Below, one piece after another: positions 19,541 through 61,133 of a stretch of 64,000 nt of DNA. The DNA comes from Bacteroidota bacterium. Its GTDB lineage: Bacteria > Bacteroidota > Ignavibacteria > Ignavibacteriales > Ignavibacteriaceae. Position 1 is the stretch's first letter, and each line of letters opens with the position of its first letter. Location of the stretch: contig JAKBMG010000175.1 in NCBI GenBank assembly GCA_021831685.1, forward strand, positions 1-64,000, written 5' to 3'. Both the position numbers and the translations under genes were made by a program. The notes under the pieces are model-generated. The model saw only the letters and a list, made by a program, of their open reading frames with translations, was not told the DNA's origin and searched no databases.

Positions 19541-19586
19541 GTTGACAGTGACTACTATGAACTTTAATAAAGTATATAATGTCAAC
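19541..19586 (+). promoter_or_regulatory. Inverted repeats upstream of the MerR-type gene
   Basis: GTTGACA (19541-19547) and TGTCAAC (19580-19586, overlapping the start codon) form a 7-bp inverted repeat. Inside it lies the small palindrome ACTTT-AAT-AAAGT (19561-19573). The position directly over the start suggests autoregulation by the MerR protein. The spacing is larger than a usual MerR dyad, so this is tentative. Confidence 0.3.
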
Positions 19587-20019
19587 ATTAGATAAGTCAA
19601 ATACACCGCTTTATACAATAAGCATGGCAGCCAAATTAGTAGGCATCTCTGTTCATACTATGAGAATGTATGAAAACGAAGGATTAATAATTCCCTTTAA
19701 GAAAGAAAGCAAACAAAGGCTTTATTCAGAACTGGATGTTGAGAGATTGAGATGCCTTCGAAAAGTAATAAATGAAGAACGAATTGGAATTGAAGGCATC
19801 CGCAGACTCCTTGCTCTAATTCCCTGCTGGGGCATTATAAAGTGTTCTTTAAAGGACAGGAAAAAATGCGAAGCATACAACATTGCTACAAAACCATGCT
19901 GGATGATAAATCATAAAAACAATTATTGTACCGGAAGAGATTGTAGAGTATGCGAGGTGTATCAAAGTTTTAGTAATTGTGAAAGCATAAAAAACAAGTT
20001 AAAAGAATTAATAGCATAG
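19579..20019 (+). CDS. MerR-family regulator with Cys-rich C-terminus
   Basis: Residues 10-78 are a MerR helix-turn-helix (YTISMAAKLVGISVHTMRMYENEGLI). The effector half is unusual: instead of a long coiled coil it has seven cysteines in PCWGIIKC, KKCEAY, PCWMI, and CTGRDCRVCEVYQ, plus a late C. This could bind a metal, an Fe-S cluster or react with persulfide; the choice is inference. It lies 32 bases upstream of a sulfide:quinone oxidoreductase-like gene on the same strand, so it probably controls the sulfur cluster 20052-22827. There is no clear ribosome site before the ATG at 19579, so a leaderless or weakly initiated message is possible. Confidence 0.82.
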   Translation: MSTLDKSNTPLYTISMAAKLVGISVHTMRMYENEGLIIPFKKESKQRLYSELDVERLRCLRKVINEERIGIEGIRRLLALIPCWGIIKCSLKDRKKCEAYNIATKPCWMINHKNNYCTGRDCRVCEVYQSFSNCESIKNKLKELIA

Positions 20020-20051
20020 AAAAACTAATAGTTAAAGGAAGAGTTAATAAA

Positions 20052-21281
20052 ATGAAAAAACTTCTTATTCTTGGTGCGGGAACCGCCGGGACAATGATGT
20101 TAAATAAATTATATAATGCGCTTGATAAAAATGAGTGGCAGATTACGATAGTTGATCAACACGAAACTCATTATTATCAGCCTGGATTTTTATTCATACC
20201 TTTCGGGATTTATTCAAGAAATGACGTTATTAAACCCAAGCGTGATTTTTTCCCTTCAGGCGTAAATGCAATAATTGCTCAAATCGATAAGGTTGAACCT
20301 GAAAATAACCGTGTATTATTAAATAATAATCAGGTACTTTCCTACGATTTGTTATTGATTGCTACGGGTTCAAGAATAAGTCCAGAAGAAACAGAAGGGA
20401 TGAAAGATAAATTATGGCATAAAAACATTTTTGATTTTTATACAATCGAGGGTGCGTGTGCACTTAAAAACTTTTTTAAGCATTGGGAAGGAGGCAAGCT
20501 GGTTCTGAATATAACTGAAATGCCTATTAAATGCCCGGTGGCTCCGTTAGAATTTGTATTCCTGGCGGATTCATATTTTACAGGAAAAGGAATACGCGAT
20601 AAAGTCGACATTCACTTTGTTACCCCGCTTCCGGGCGCTTTTACAAAGCCTAAAGCATCGGCTATACTTGGTGATTTTCTGGACAAAAAAAATATTAAAT
20701 TGACAACAGACTTTAGTATAGGAAAAGTTGATAACGACGCTAAGAAAATTATTTCGTGGGATGAACAAGAAGTTCCCTTTGATGTATTAGTAACAATCCC
20801 TACAAATAAGGGAGACGACTATATAAAAAGAAGCGGCATGGGAGATGAATTAAATTTTATTCCCACCGATAAGCATTCGCTTAGATCCGAAAAATATGAA
20901 AATATATTTGTTATAGGAGATACGACAAATCTCCCAAGTTCAAAAGCCGGTTCAGTGGCTCATTTTCAATCGGAGATTTTATTTGAAAACATGCTAAGCT
21001 TCATGGAAGGCAGAGAACCGAAAGAAAAATTTGATGGACACGCTAACTGCTTTATTGAATCAGGTTTTGGTAAAGGTATTCTAATCGATTTCAATTACGA
21101 GACGGAACCATTGCCGGGTAAATTTCCGCTTCCGGGTATTGGACCCTTTTCTCTGCTTGAAGAAACAAAAATGAATCACTACGGCAAAGTAATGTTTAGA
21201 TGGATGTACTGGAATTTTCTTGTAAAAGGTTTGGAATTACCGATTGAATCGAATATGTCAATGGCTGGAAAGCGAGTGTGA
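20052..21281 (+). CDS. Sulfide:quinone oxidoreductase-like flavoprotein
   Basis: An FAD-binding Rossmann motif (LGAGTAGTMM) opens the protein; a second conserved stretch ends ATGSR, and GDTTNLPSSKAG near the end binds the flavin tail. Cysteines include the one in IKCPVAPLEF (about residue 160), matching the redox Cys of the family, and one in GHANCFIESG (about 335). The enzyme would oxidise sulfide, or a related thiol, and pass electrons to the quinone pool at the inner membrane. Length 409 is normal. AAGGAAGAG precedes the ATG. Neighbours (DUF1641, DsrC/TusE, DsrE-like) support a sulfur role. Substrate type within the SQR group cannot be fixed here. Confidence 0.83.
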   Translation: MKKLLILGAGTAGTMMLNKLYNALDKNEWQITIVDQHETHYYQPGFLFIPFGIYSRNDVIKPKRDFFPSGVNAIIAQIDKVEPENNRVLLNNNQVLSYDLLLIATGSRISPEETEGMKDKLWHKNIFDFYTIEGACALKNFFKHWEGGKLVLNITEMPIKCPVAPLEFVFLADSYFTGKGIRDKVDIHFVTPLPGAFTKPKASAILGDFLDKKNIKLTTDFSIGKVDNDAKKIISWDEQEVPFDVLVTIPTNKGDDYIKRSGMGDELNFIPTDKHSLRSEKYENIFVIGDTTNLPSSKAGSVAHFQSEILFENMLSFMEGREPKEKFDGHANCFIESGFGKGILIDFNYETEPLPGKFPLPGIGPFSLLEETKMNHYGKVMFRWMYWNFLVKGLELPIESNMSMAGKRV

Positions 21282-21282
21282 A

Positions 21283-21987
21283 ATGGAATCTAACAATATT
21301 CAAGAACAGATGGATAAAATTAACAACAAACTCGATGTAATTCTTGAAGAGATTGAACTTCAGAAAAAGCACAGACGAGAAATAGAAGACTTGAAAGATG
21401 ATTTAATGAGAGTCGGAAACGACCTTTACCGTTCTACTGTAATTGAACTAGATCAAGTGCACGATTATCTAAATACCGGTGATATTTTCCACCTTGGGAA
21501 AAAACTGCTTCGAAACGTAAATATAATCACCAAAAGCATTGAACAGATGGAAAGCATTAAAGATTTTCTTAAGGATGTTTCTCCGCTTTCCCGCGAATCA
21601 TTTATTGATCTGATGAACAAACTTGATGAATTTGACCGCAAAGGATATTTCCAGTTTATCAAAGAACTCGGGAAAGTTGCAGATAAAATTGTTACTTCAT
21701 TCGGTCCTGATGATGTAAATAATCTCGGTGAAAACATTGTTACAATAATTAATACGGTAAAAAATCTTACTCAACCGGATATGCTGCATAGTATCAACAA
21801 TGCGATATCTGTTTACAAAAAATTAGATATTGAAGTTTCAGACAAAATTTCTTTTATATCATTAATTAAAGAATTAAATACTCCTGAAACGAAAAGAGGA
21901 TTAGCCTTTGCAATTCAATTCTTAAAGAATTTGGCTGCAAATGGCTCTAAAGATTTAACAAACGTAAAATCATTACAAACAAATTAA
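21283..21987 (+). CDS. DUF1641-type helical protein next to the SQR-like gene
   Basis: The ATG at 21283 starts one base after the upstream stop, which implies translational coupling; the track's start at 21244 lies inside the previous gene. The 234-residue product is almost all helix: an N-terminal coiled coil (QMDKINNKLDVILEEIELQKKHRREIEDL) and a C-terminal segment (ETKRGLAFAIQFLKNLA) that matches the DUF1641 signature. DUF1641 proteins are commonly encoded beside SQR-type flavoproteins, but their biochemical role is not known. It probably binds or organises the flavoprotein at the membrane; this is inference. Confidence 0.75.
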   Translation: MESNNIQEQMDKINNKLDVILEEIELQKKHRREIEDLKDDLMRVGNDLYRSTVIELDQVHDYLNTGDIFHLGKKLLRNVNIITKSIEQMESIKDFLKDVSPLSRESFIDLMNKLDEFDRKGYFQFIKELGKVADKIVTSFGPDDVNNLGENIVTIINTVKNLTQPDMLHSINNAISVYKKLDIEVSDKISFISLIKELNTPETKRGLAFAIQFLKNLAANGSKDLTNVKSLQTN

Positions 21988-22000
21988 TAAAGGAAAAACA

Positions 22001-22318
22001 ATGGAAACGGTAGAACAAAAGAGCATAATTTTGGAGCGGGATGCCGACAGTAATCTTAAAAATTTATCCGATTGGAATAAAGAAGTTGCTGTTGAGCTTG
22101 CAAAAGAAGAAGATATTACTGAGCTAACCGAAAGGCATTGGCTGGTAATAAATTTTATGAGAAAAGAATTTAAGGAAAAAGGAGACGCTCCTTCAATTCG
22201 CAGATTAACAAAAGAAAGCGGAGTGGAAACTAAAGAATTATATAATTTATTTCCCAAAGGTCCGGCAAAGAAAGCCGCTAAAATCGCCGGTTTACCTAAA
22301 CCAAAAGGCTGCATTTAA
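22001..22318 (+). CDS. DsrC/TusE-family sulfur carrier with a single C-terminal Cys
   Basis: The C-terminal arm KIAGLPKPKGCI carries the conserved penultimate Cys that holds persulfide sulfur. The second Cys found 10-11 residues earlier in true DsrC is Ala here (KKAAKIAG), which is the TusE-like condition. The fold signature LTERHWLVINFMRKEF is present. The protein accepts sulfur from a DsrE-type donor and hands it on. It lies 13 bases after the DUF1641 gene and 17 bases before the DsrE-like gene, all in one operon. Because one Cys is missing it should not form the DsrC trisulfide used by dissimilatory sulfite reductase. Confidence 0.88.
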   Translation: METVEQKSIILERDADSNLKNLSDWNKEVAVELAKEEDITELTERHWLVINFMRKEFKEKGDAPSIRRLTKESGVETKELYNLFPKGPAKKAAKIAGLPKPKGCI

Positions 22319-22335
22319 TTAAAGGAAAATAAAAA

Positions 22336-22827
22336 ATGGAAGAGTCAATTAAAAAAATTTCGATCGTAGTTTCGAGAGGTTCTTTAGAGGGAGTTTATCC
22401 GGGATTGATAATGGCTAACGGTGCAAGAATGGAAGGTATAGAAGCAACATTGTTTTTTACTTTCTTCGGACTGCACGCAGTCATCGAAAAAAAGATGGAT
22501 AAGCTGAAAGTTGCTACTGTTGGTAACCCTGCAATGTGTGTTCCATCTGCTATGGGACCGGGTTTACCAACATGGCTGGGCACGTTACCGGGAATGTCTT
22601 GGTTTGCTACCGGAATGATGAAAAAAGAAATCGAGAAATTAGACATCCCCCCGGTACGTGAATTTATTGAGATGATTCACGATACCGGCTGCGAAATTTA
22701 CGGCTGTAAAGCTACTGTGGAAATGTTTCATCTAACAAAAAAAGATTTCTGTCCTCAAGTAGATGATATTATTTCTGTAGGGCAATTTTACGAAAAGTCC
22801 GCCGGCGCTCAGATAATTTTTACTTAG
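22336..22827 (+). CDS. DsrE/DsrF-like sulfur-transfer protein (DsrE2 type)
   Basis: A 163-residue protein of the DsrE/DsrF-like superfamily. N-terminal strand KISIVVSRGSLEGVYPGLIMANGA and a C-terminal CEIYGCKATVEMF motif, with two cysteines, match the membrane-associated DsrE2 group; a further Cys sits in NPAMCVPSAMG. Hydrophobic stretches around 30-50 and 75-100 suggest contact with the membrane. It would pass sulfur as persulfide to the DsrC/TusE protein encoded just upstream. AAAGGAAAAT precedes the ATG. It is the last gene of the MerR-SQR-DUF1641-TusE-DsrE cluster. Confidence 0.82.
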   Translation: MEESIKKISIVVSRGSLEGVYPGLIMANGARMEGIEATLFFTFFGLHAVIEKKMDKLKVATVGNPAMCVPSAMGPGLPTWLGTLPGMSWFATGMMKKEIEKLDIPPVREFIEMIHDTGCEIYGCKATVEMFHLTKKDFCPQVDDIISVGQFYEKSAGAQIIFT

Positions 22828-23250: not shown

Positions 23251-23605
23251 TAATTATATCTATCAAAATATTTCTTGATACAGGTTTTACTAAATACACA
23301 TCGGCTCCGGCATTTAAAACATTGGCTCTTTGATCAAGTGAATCGTATGAAGTAATACAAGCAATGGGTATCTTTAAAAAATCTTTATTAGCCTTTAGCT
23401 CTTTAATTAAAGATAAACCGTCTTTTGAACCCGGCAGCCCAATATCCATAATTATTAATTGAAAATTATTATTTGATAATTTATCGTACATTGATTTTTC
23501 CGAATCGCATAATGAAATATTATAATTCTTCAACCATAACCGGTATAAATTCCGGCTGATTTCTTCATCTTCAACTATTAAAATCTTGAGACTTTTTTCT
23601 TCCAT
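23234..23605 (-). CDS. Stand-alone response-regulator receiver domain
   Basis: A complete 123-residue receiver with no output domain. The acidic pair is in VEDEE, the phospho-Asp in IIMDIGLPGS, the Ser/Thr switch in CITSY and the Lys in LVKPV. It should take phosphate from a histidine kinase, as CheY- or Spo0F-like proteins do, but no kinase adjoins it. On the minus strand it lies 43 bases downstream of the intrinsic terminator of a structured RNA, so its expression may depend on read-through. Its downstream end overlaps a beta-barrel-like gene fragment on the other strand. Confidence 0.85.
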   Translation of the reverse strand: MEEKSLKILIVEDEEISRNLYRLWLKNYNISLCDSEKSMYDKLSNNNFQLIIMDIGLPGSKDGLSLIKELKANKDFLKIPIACITSYDSLDQRANVLNAGADVYLVKPVSRNILIDIITKFQT

Positions 23606-23647: not shown

Positions 23648-23790
23648 TAAAAAAGGACGCAACTTCCATTACATCCTTACACAGGGCACTGGTATGCCCA
23701 CACACAAAGACATAAGAAAGCGCGTCCATTTCTGGACGCAGCCTCTTTGCATGTTCTTGTGTGTTTAAAATTACCAGTTTTAGTGTAAGA
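23648..23790 (-). ncRNA. Rod-like structured RNA with intrinsic terminator (6S-like candidate)
   Basis: Read on the minus strand, four nested pairings form one long rod: CTTACAC (23789-23783) with GTGTAAG (23682-23676), ACTGGT with ACCAGT, ACACACAA with TTGTGTGT, and a tip GCGTCC-AGAAAT-GGACGC with AAAG/CTTT and ACAT/ATGT pairs below it. Large internal loops separate them. A 10-bp terminator stem (AAGGATGTAA / TTGCGTCCTT, two G-U pairs) with a 6-base loop and a T run follows at 23648-23678 and overlaps the outer stem. The single rod with internal bubbles is reminiscent of 6S RNA. It could instead be an attenuating leader of the receiver gene 23605. Confidence 0.6.
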
Positions 23791-23981
23791 ACATAGCAAA
23801 CGCTACGTTAATATTTTAAATTCAAAATTATACTGCTAAAAAATCCTTTAACTTTTTTGTTAGTGTAAACTATAAAGAAAAATAATCTTATACAACTTTT
23901 GTACTTCGATTGATTATTTGAAATAAATGAAGAATGAAACGAAAATATTTTCTTGCTATAATTCTTTTTCTACTCCCATGA

Positions 23982-60953: not shown

Positions 60954-60971
60954 AGTACTTAATCACTCTCT

Positions 60972-61057
60972 AGCCCGTTTCCCTACGCTGGTATTATCCA
61001 GATCAGGTTCTAGGGTTTGTTCTCAGTCATCACGATTAACTCGGGACAACACCCCTA
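60972..61057 (-). ncRNA. TPP riboswitch (THI element)
   Basis: Read on the minus strand the conserved core appears in order: GGGGTG, CTGAGA, ACCCT, GAACCTGATCTGGATAATACC and AGCGTAGGGAA. These are the invariant parts of the thiamine-diphosphate aptamer, including the CUGAGA pyrimidine-binding loop. It precedes an intrinsic terminator and the thiamine uptake operon 60914-56390, so high thiamine diphosphate should reduce uptake and kinase production. It sits in the 219-bp gap between the receptor and the lytic transglycosylase gene. Confidence 0.97.
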
Positions 61058-61133
61058 ACAGCTTATGGTTTATAATTGATTTGTTATTTAAATTTATCGG
61101 GTTTCAAACTCCGTTAATATTCGTTAATTAATG

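Follow-up and report, generated by a model that had tools for sequence, protein, structure and literature searches.

The minus strand of a 64,000-nucleotide window (the whole stretch of DNA that was analysed, from contig JAKBMG010000175.1 of assembly GCA_021831685.1) carries a conserved RNA element of 163 bases which is probably a cis-acting, bistable transcription attenuator leader of a riboswitch-like kind. Four of its segments can form either of two sets of pairings that exclude each other, and one set places a long hairpin directly before a U-run. Both sets of pairings coevolve among the copies of the element, and most copies precede genes on the same strand.

Extent and anatomy of the element

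The minimum free energy of the minus strand between 23800 and 23640 is −58.7 kcal/mol, compared with −35.9 ± 4.0 kcal/mol for 200 dinucleotide shuffles, none of which is equally stable (z −5.75). The predicted fold is a single interrupted rod with a hairpin and a U-run behind it, in agreement with a sequence-only reading of this DNA that had described a rod with its own terminator on this strand. The same reading held that no listed gene explains the region, and indeed no ORF of at least 60 aa is present on either strand between 23606 and 23981. Two of its details are revised here. The RNA had been placed at 23790–23648, but the conserved unit is 23811–23649 and includes the 5′ hairpin P0 and a single-stranded segment (Table 1). 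In addition, the motif TAgcgTTTG, regarded as loosely promoter-like, is located inside P0; relatives have CAGCTATTG in its place, by which the hairpin is kept and the promoter match is lost, and the motif was rejected as a promoter.

Table 1. Features of the element and its surroundings (window coordinates; all on the minus strand).
Feature	Position	Strand	Observation
Candidate promoter, TTG, 20 bases, TAGTTTAC (Bacteroidota-like −33/−7)	23865..23895	-	candidate, read directly
Whole conserved RNA element	23649..23811	-	covariance-model family, Rfam-negative; R2 match 23649–23809
P0, 5′ hairpin, contains TAgcgTTTG	23792..23807	-	91% paired; 2 pairs changed on both sides
Segment 1, TTTGCTATGTTCTT	23787..23800	-	complement of the 5′ part of segment 2; 1:2 coevolution
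Outer stem P1, 5′ side	23782..23788	-	6/7 pairs changed on both sides
Conserved core 1, AAAACTGGTAATTTT	23767..23781	-	includes P2 5′ side, 23777–23772
P3, 5′ side	23756..23764	-	P3 coevolution z
Segment 2, rod 5′ side, AAGAACATGCAAAGAGGCTGCGTCC	23734..23758	-	partner is segment 1 or segment 3
Segment 3, rod 3′ side, GGACGCGCTTTCTTATGTC	23709..23727	-	partner is segment 2 or segment 4
P3, 3′ side	23700..23709	-	P3 coevolution z
Core 2 hairpin, GGGCA-TACCAG-TGCCC	23684..23699	-	98.7% paired
Outer stem P1, 3′ side	23677..23683	-	covariation with P1 5′ side
Segment 4, GATGTAATGGAAGTTGCGTCC	23655..23675	-	near copy of the rod's inner 5′ strand; pairs with segment 3
Terminator U-run	23649..23654	-	T-run at fixed place in copies
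Stand-alone response-regulator receiver, 123 aa	23234..23605	-	Pfam Response_reg 2.1e-21; start ~43 bases past the U-run

Within core 1 the sequence GAAAAC..TTT is near-invariant among the copies, and helix P2, in part formed by this core, covaries in the alignment of copies. The core 2 hairpin changes from GGCA/TGCC to GGTA/TACC in 4 of 19 copies. P2 has its 3′ side in the loop of this hairpin, and the two therefore exclude each other unless they form a pseudoknot. Segment 4 nearly repeats the strand on the inner 5′ side of the rod, so that segment 3 is able to pair with either segment 2 or segment 4. By itself segment 4 also forms a weak local hairpin.

Elsewhere in the window a TPP riboswitch (RF00059) is found at 60963–61066 on the minus strand, with 65.7 bits. 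From their translations, we take the genes at 19579–22827 to resemble a MerR-type regulator, a pyridine-nucleotide disulphide oxidoreductase and small DsrE-like proteins, a gene run that suggests sulfur chemistry.

Coevolution of two exclusive folds

For the analysis of pairing 164 copies were pooled (52 + 92 + 20), of which 138 were used for the coevolution, T-run and energy tests; those left out were without a recognisable core, without a flank, or duplicates. Two sets were distinguished, one with the copies of this order (n=43) and one with copies of other Bacteroidota and of Fibrobacter, Lentisphaerae and the viral collection (n=95), and values are given below in this order. In an alignment-free test the duplex energy of cognate strands was compared with that of strands swapped between copies. 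Segments 2 and 3 coevolve with z values of −7.6 and −13.6, which lean high because the loop was located per copy, a choice favouring cognate pairs. Coevolution is also found for segments 3 and 4 (z −8.0 and −14.7), where no per-copy fit to segment 4 was involved, for segments 1 and 2 (z −7.3 and −15.9), for the outer stem P1 (z −18.7 and −24.0) and for P3 (z −15.1 and −22.8). The control pair of the look-alike segments 2 and 4 shows no coevolution in the swap test (z −1.3 and +0.2); all of these permutation z values may include an effect of kinship between copies, which the controls only bound.

The aligned copies reveal the same helices. In an alignment of 44 sequences the two 3:4 helices are 95.7% and 95.5% paired and show two-sided changes in 6 of 10 pairs; the 1:2 helix, which is 90.1% paired, shows them in 4 of 6. 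Covariation, the check that had been proposed from the sequence, is strong and present in two separate alignments, including the rod helices, and the hairpin GGYA-TRCCAG-TRCC covaries as well. On the sense strand G-U outnumbers A-C in each of three counts (57:12, 118:46 and 99:12), as expected for a folded RNA of that strand, although the count is biased in this direction because the structures were drawn allowing G-U pairs.

These pairings point to two states. In state A, segments 2 and 3 would form the rod, closed by P1, P2 and P3, with P0 as a separate hairpin. In state B, segment 1 would pair with segment 2 and segment 3 with segment 4, giving a long terminator hairpin with the GGYA/TRCC hairpin as its cap and the U-run behind it. 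With the 2:3 rod in place the long 3:4 terminator is blocked, and once 1:2 and 3:4 have formed transcription should stop at the U-run. The competitor of the terminator is the inner part of the rod, and not the outer stem as had been supposed from the sequence. The two states differ in computed energy by at most 8 kcal/mol in 35/43 and 78/95 copies, with the local 3′ hairpin excluded, and a T-run of at least 4 is present at the fixed place in 43/43 and 90/95 copies, compared with 28–29% in shuffles. Nearly all copies have complementary apical loops in state B, CUGGYA and URCCAG.

The element thereby has a terminator and an antiterminator that are mutually exclusive; in the clade of the window copy a third, local hairpin complicates this arrangement. 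There, the self-hairpin of segment 4 reaches −6 kcal/mol or lower in 32/43 copies, compared with 13/95 elsewhere, and the minimum free energy fold of the window copy is state A together with the local segment 4 hairpin (−67.3 vs −59.1 for state B). As a result of this self-folding, state A may terminate too in the clade of the window copy, though less strongly.

An early model with fixed pseudoknots for 1:2 and core 2 was dropped in favour of two exclusive nested folds, as segment 4 copies the 5′ strand of the rod. A related explanation is a single pseudoknotted fold, in which 1:2 and core 2 are pseudoknots added to P1–P3 and which would dock a processive antitermination or RNA-binding protein and never switch. 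It would account for the covariation of all helices, which could in part coexist as pseudoknots, and for the lack of a shared function among the genes behind the element. Segment 3, however, has two partners that it cannot bind together, and the two folds are nearly equal in energy, which makes such a single fold very unlikely.

Two related copies (L050:5004-5134 and L114:4017-4148, minus strands) have lost everything between the look-alike strands, i.e., the end of segment 2 and segment 4, while the 5′ half and a T-run are retained. With that stretch the terminator is gone, and these copies are natural terminator-less leaders. In Flavobacteriia an additional long-range pairing beyond the U-run is possible. 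In copies such as L194, L127, L187, L138 and L184 the sequence TTCTAAGC or TTCAAAGC is located ~150–169 bases downstream of the core and tracks the changes of the P0 3′ strand (GCTTAGAA/GCTTTGAA). In Flavobacteriia the longest downstream match complementary to the P0 3′ strand has a mean length of 5.8, compared with 4.5–4.6 in controls.

Copies of the element and the genes behind them

A BLAST search reveals four copies in the genome of the window, the other three being 85–88% identical to the window copy, and further copies in 59 relatives, with unrelated flanks. A first covariance model (R1) was built from 19 copies and served for searching only, as its apical helix is one base off register (helix 6, 38% paired). 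R1 detects 52 copies, spread over 28 of the 164 genomes of the order, with 1–9 copies per genome and the full 162 positions matched in all; five are in the genome of the window, the fifth being weak (E 6.4e-5). Matching repeats elsewhere in the genome had been considered a sign against an RNA. Such repeats do exist, but they carry compensatory changes, which identifies them as paralogous RNAs and removes the objection.

Scanning a species-level genome collection with the core pattern yields at least 119 stretches, the majority in records named Bacteroidota. The genera among the matches listed include Chryseobacterium, Flavobacterium, Bacteroides, Parabacteroides and Mucilaginibacter, among others, and further listed matches are from Ignavibacteria and from Fibrobacter and Lentisphaerae MAGs; the pattern is also present in 10 contigs of a viral collection. 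Applied to 90 loci, R1 marks 92 sites, the three weakest with E values of 0.01–0.5. For a second model (R2), in which the apical helix is in register, 44 Flavobacteriia-type copies were used and none from this order. R2 gives matches in 54 of the 395 phylum genomes and finds the window copy independently (56.4 bits, E 3.4e-10). One Lentisphaerae MAG contains ten hits, so that a stray contaminant contig is unlikely there.

None of the 4227 families of Rfam 15 fits the window element or 18 further loci (of the 90) at the gathering score, and permissive Rfam scans of the window, one Flavobacterium copy and one Bacteroides copy give weak, unrelated matches only. A limited literature search, which did not cover preprints, found no description of this RNA. 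The family appears to be undescribed, without a name or an Rfam entry, which together with the strong covariation bears out the earlier proposal of an undescribed structured RNA. An abiF RNA is located at L176:143-181. Two of the 18 scanned loci, in a Bacteroidales integrative-element setting, have an rteR sRNA (RF04181) at a distance of 0.6 kb behind the element (L120:4934-5014; L162:2633-2712; both on the minus strand); it is a separate RNA on the other strand.

Several copies reside on integrative-element or plasmid backbones. Together with the patchy spread, the unrelated flanks and the viral-collection contigs, this would fit a non-autonomous, MITE-like or attC-like mobile DNA element, of which the folded strand is used in transposition or integration. 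Yet the orientation of the copies towards the next gene is fixed, and two coevolving alternative folds, a U-run and upstream promoters are not features of mobile ends. No target duplication was seen by eye at the flanks of the copies, and we consider a mobile element highly improbable.

The nearest downstream gene is on the strand of the element in 45/48 and 86/94 copies (131/142 in total). The next downstream ORF is on the opposite strand in 2/48 and 8/94, and in 1/48 none is called; the upstream gene shows no same-strand bias (30/48 and 40/99). The motif TAnnTTTG, which we take to be the Bacteroidota −7 element, occurs in Bacteroidota 100 times in the 240–30 bases before the core of 87 copies, where 16.4 are expected. 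Behind the element it is depleted in Bacteroidota, with 7 occurrences in 84 copies and 15.8 expected. Upstream of the copies of this order it is not enriched (9 vs 7.6 expected). A published account describes the promoters of Bacteroidota as atypical (PMC9723704). The candidate promoter upstream of the window copy (Table 1) is common to five receiver-type copies (G000_C53, G000_C171, G012_C13, G012_C82 and G008_C11), and in G008_C11 the start codon is located 8 bases past the called element end. The element is thus the 5′ leader of a same-strand gene without a promoter in between, the promoter part of this statement being derived from Bacteroidota.

The gene behind the window copy encodes a stand-alone receiver. 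Seven homologues with at least 63% identity, itself included, are present in 80 genomes of the host family, and all seven are preceded by the element; none of the other receiver matches listed exceeds 45% identity. One of the seven receiver genes, in genome G007, contains an in-frame TAA, and in its element (L037:1325-1484) P1, P2 and the terminator strand are broken, a joint damage as expected if gene and element lose their use together.

This linkage bears on the possibility of a free small RNA, with its own promoter and terminator, that acts in trans (6S-like or by base pairing) and for which the neighbouring gene is incidental. The compact unit of ~160 bases with its strongly terminator-like 3′ end agrees with such an RNA, as does the copy number, which is like that of multicopy sRNA families, and the local hairpin in the clade of the window copy could always end transcription. 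On the other hand, the predominance of same-strand genes behind the element, the 7/7 linkage to one receiver family and the two exclusive pairings of the same strands are not explained in this way. Moreover, in Bacteroidota no promoter motif is enriched between the element and the gene, with sometimes as little as 8 bases of room, and Rfam 6S families are unmatched. A free small RNA is therefore regarded as unlikely, and the attenuator leader before the receiver gene at 23605, which the sequence-only reading had offered beside a 6S-like RNA, is supported by the coevolution of two exclusive folds and by the same-strand gene behind.

Trp operon-like attenuation, with a ribosome stalling on a leader peptide, would have an identical layout of 1:2 and 3:4 versus 2:3. 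However, ORFs starting with ATG over segment 1 occur in only 0/43 and 4/90 copies, compared with 5.9 and 20.1 for shuffled upstream sequences. In the window no ORF covers segment 1 even with three start codons allowed, and the copies are below the shuffle expectation, for which reason a leader peptide was rejected. In the absence of a leader peptide over segment 1 ribosome stalling is unlikely as the trigger, and this form of attenuation is extremely improbable.

In this order a Pfam analysis was carried out for 40 of 49 downstream ORFs (the 9 omitted being close receiver homologues or others). Behind the element it identifies receivers, histidine kinases, CheB-CheR, CheW and CsgG. Secreted proteins that carry a Por_Secre_tail, BACON or CarboxypepD_reg domain are also present, whereas dynamin, EcsC, Mrr and MUG113-type proteins make up a minority. 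Of the 40 ORFs scanned, 11 have no Pfam family. In Bacteroidota TonB/SusC, SusD and S9 peptidase genes follow the element, named by Pfam in one operon; in five genomes with 20 copies, 11 copies are followed by ORFs that match this operon in size and order. Other Bacteroidota genes behind the element encode ECF sigma factors, receivers, LytTR and thioredoxin-like proteins, and on Bacteroidales plasmids a RibD_C or 'dihydrofolate reductase family' gene follows it, beside RteC-type genes. The downstream genes belong to no single pathway and are mostly concerned with signalling and the cell surface. At L191, L172, L123, L185 and L144 the apparent end of a conserved short peptide is located ~150–250 bases behind the element; by eye its tail is KKPKNPI-like in Maribacter, Allomuricauda, Arenibacter and Niabella, and it is possibly a small protein or a precursor peptide.

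Known systems and a proposed mechanism

The trp-type transcription attenuators are four-segment leaders. As in the element, 1:2 and 3:4 (the terminator) exclude 2:3, and a gene follows directly. Unlike these attenuators, the element has no leader peptide over segment 1, contains a conserved core between the segments and precedes unrelated genes. In its four-segment anatomy the element follows the trp-like logic of a transcription attenuator. Riboswitches that control a terminator are 5′ leaders with the core in one of two exclusive folds and an intrinsic terminator in the other. Their use by multiple genes, the several copies per genome and the two exclusive folds are also seen for the element, which shares its conserved core between unrelated genes across species. 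The genes behind the element do not form a ligand-related set, though, and pairing in both folds accounts for part of its core.

With 6S RNA, including 6S-Flavo (RF01685), the element has in common a rod-like fold of 110–190 bases, but unlike 6S RNA it is multicopy and patchy, precedes genes on the same strand, adopts alternative folds and is unmatched in Rfam, although RF00013 and RF01685 are both in the library. The entire genome gives no match to RF00013, for which 5 of 14 controls are positive, nor to RF01685, a result of little weight as the control genomes gave none either. A 6S RNA, as a conserved low-copy housekeeping RNA, was rejected in view of the occurrence in only a minority of the genomes of the order and the 1–9 copies, and the 6S-like option of the sequence-only reading is abandoned here. 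The nearest multicopy Bacteroidota RNA found in print is the FopS sRNA family of Bacteroides, which is likewise tied to SusC-type genes (PMC11697453). Its design is different: FopS is a trans-acting RNA with one terminator hairpin and a single-stranded 5′ seed (PMC11697453), whereas the element is a ~160-base two-state leader in cis.

In the proposed mechanism of the attenuator leader, state A would let RNA polymerase pass into the gene behind, and state B would halt it. A signal, i.e., a small molecule, a protein or a partner RNA, would act on the conserved core and in this way set the balance between the two states. Many bases of the core pair in both folds, and its conservation may thus not require a ligand. 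The complementary apical loops of state B mean that leaders could kiss within or between transcripts.

More tentatively, and with somewhat less than an even chance, the element could represent an unrecognised riboswitch-like class across Bacteroidota, Lentisphaerae and Fibrobacter MAGs that reads one common signal and sets the expression of signalling proteins, SusC/SusD-peptidase operons, secreted proteins and integrative-element genes, with kissing of leaders possibly joining them into one cell-wide network. The element is a putative RNA switch of ~160 bases with clean two-state coevolution, in a phylum in which gene control is unlike the textbook models. If the proposed function is correct, it would add a layer of RNA control to SusC/SusD-peptidase operons, stand-alone response regulators and integrative-element genes, and it would provide a defined RNA that can be used for finding a new signal.
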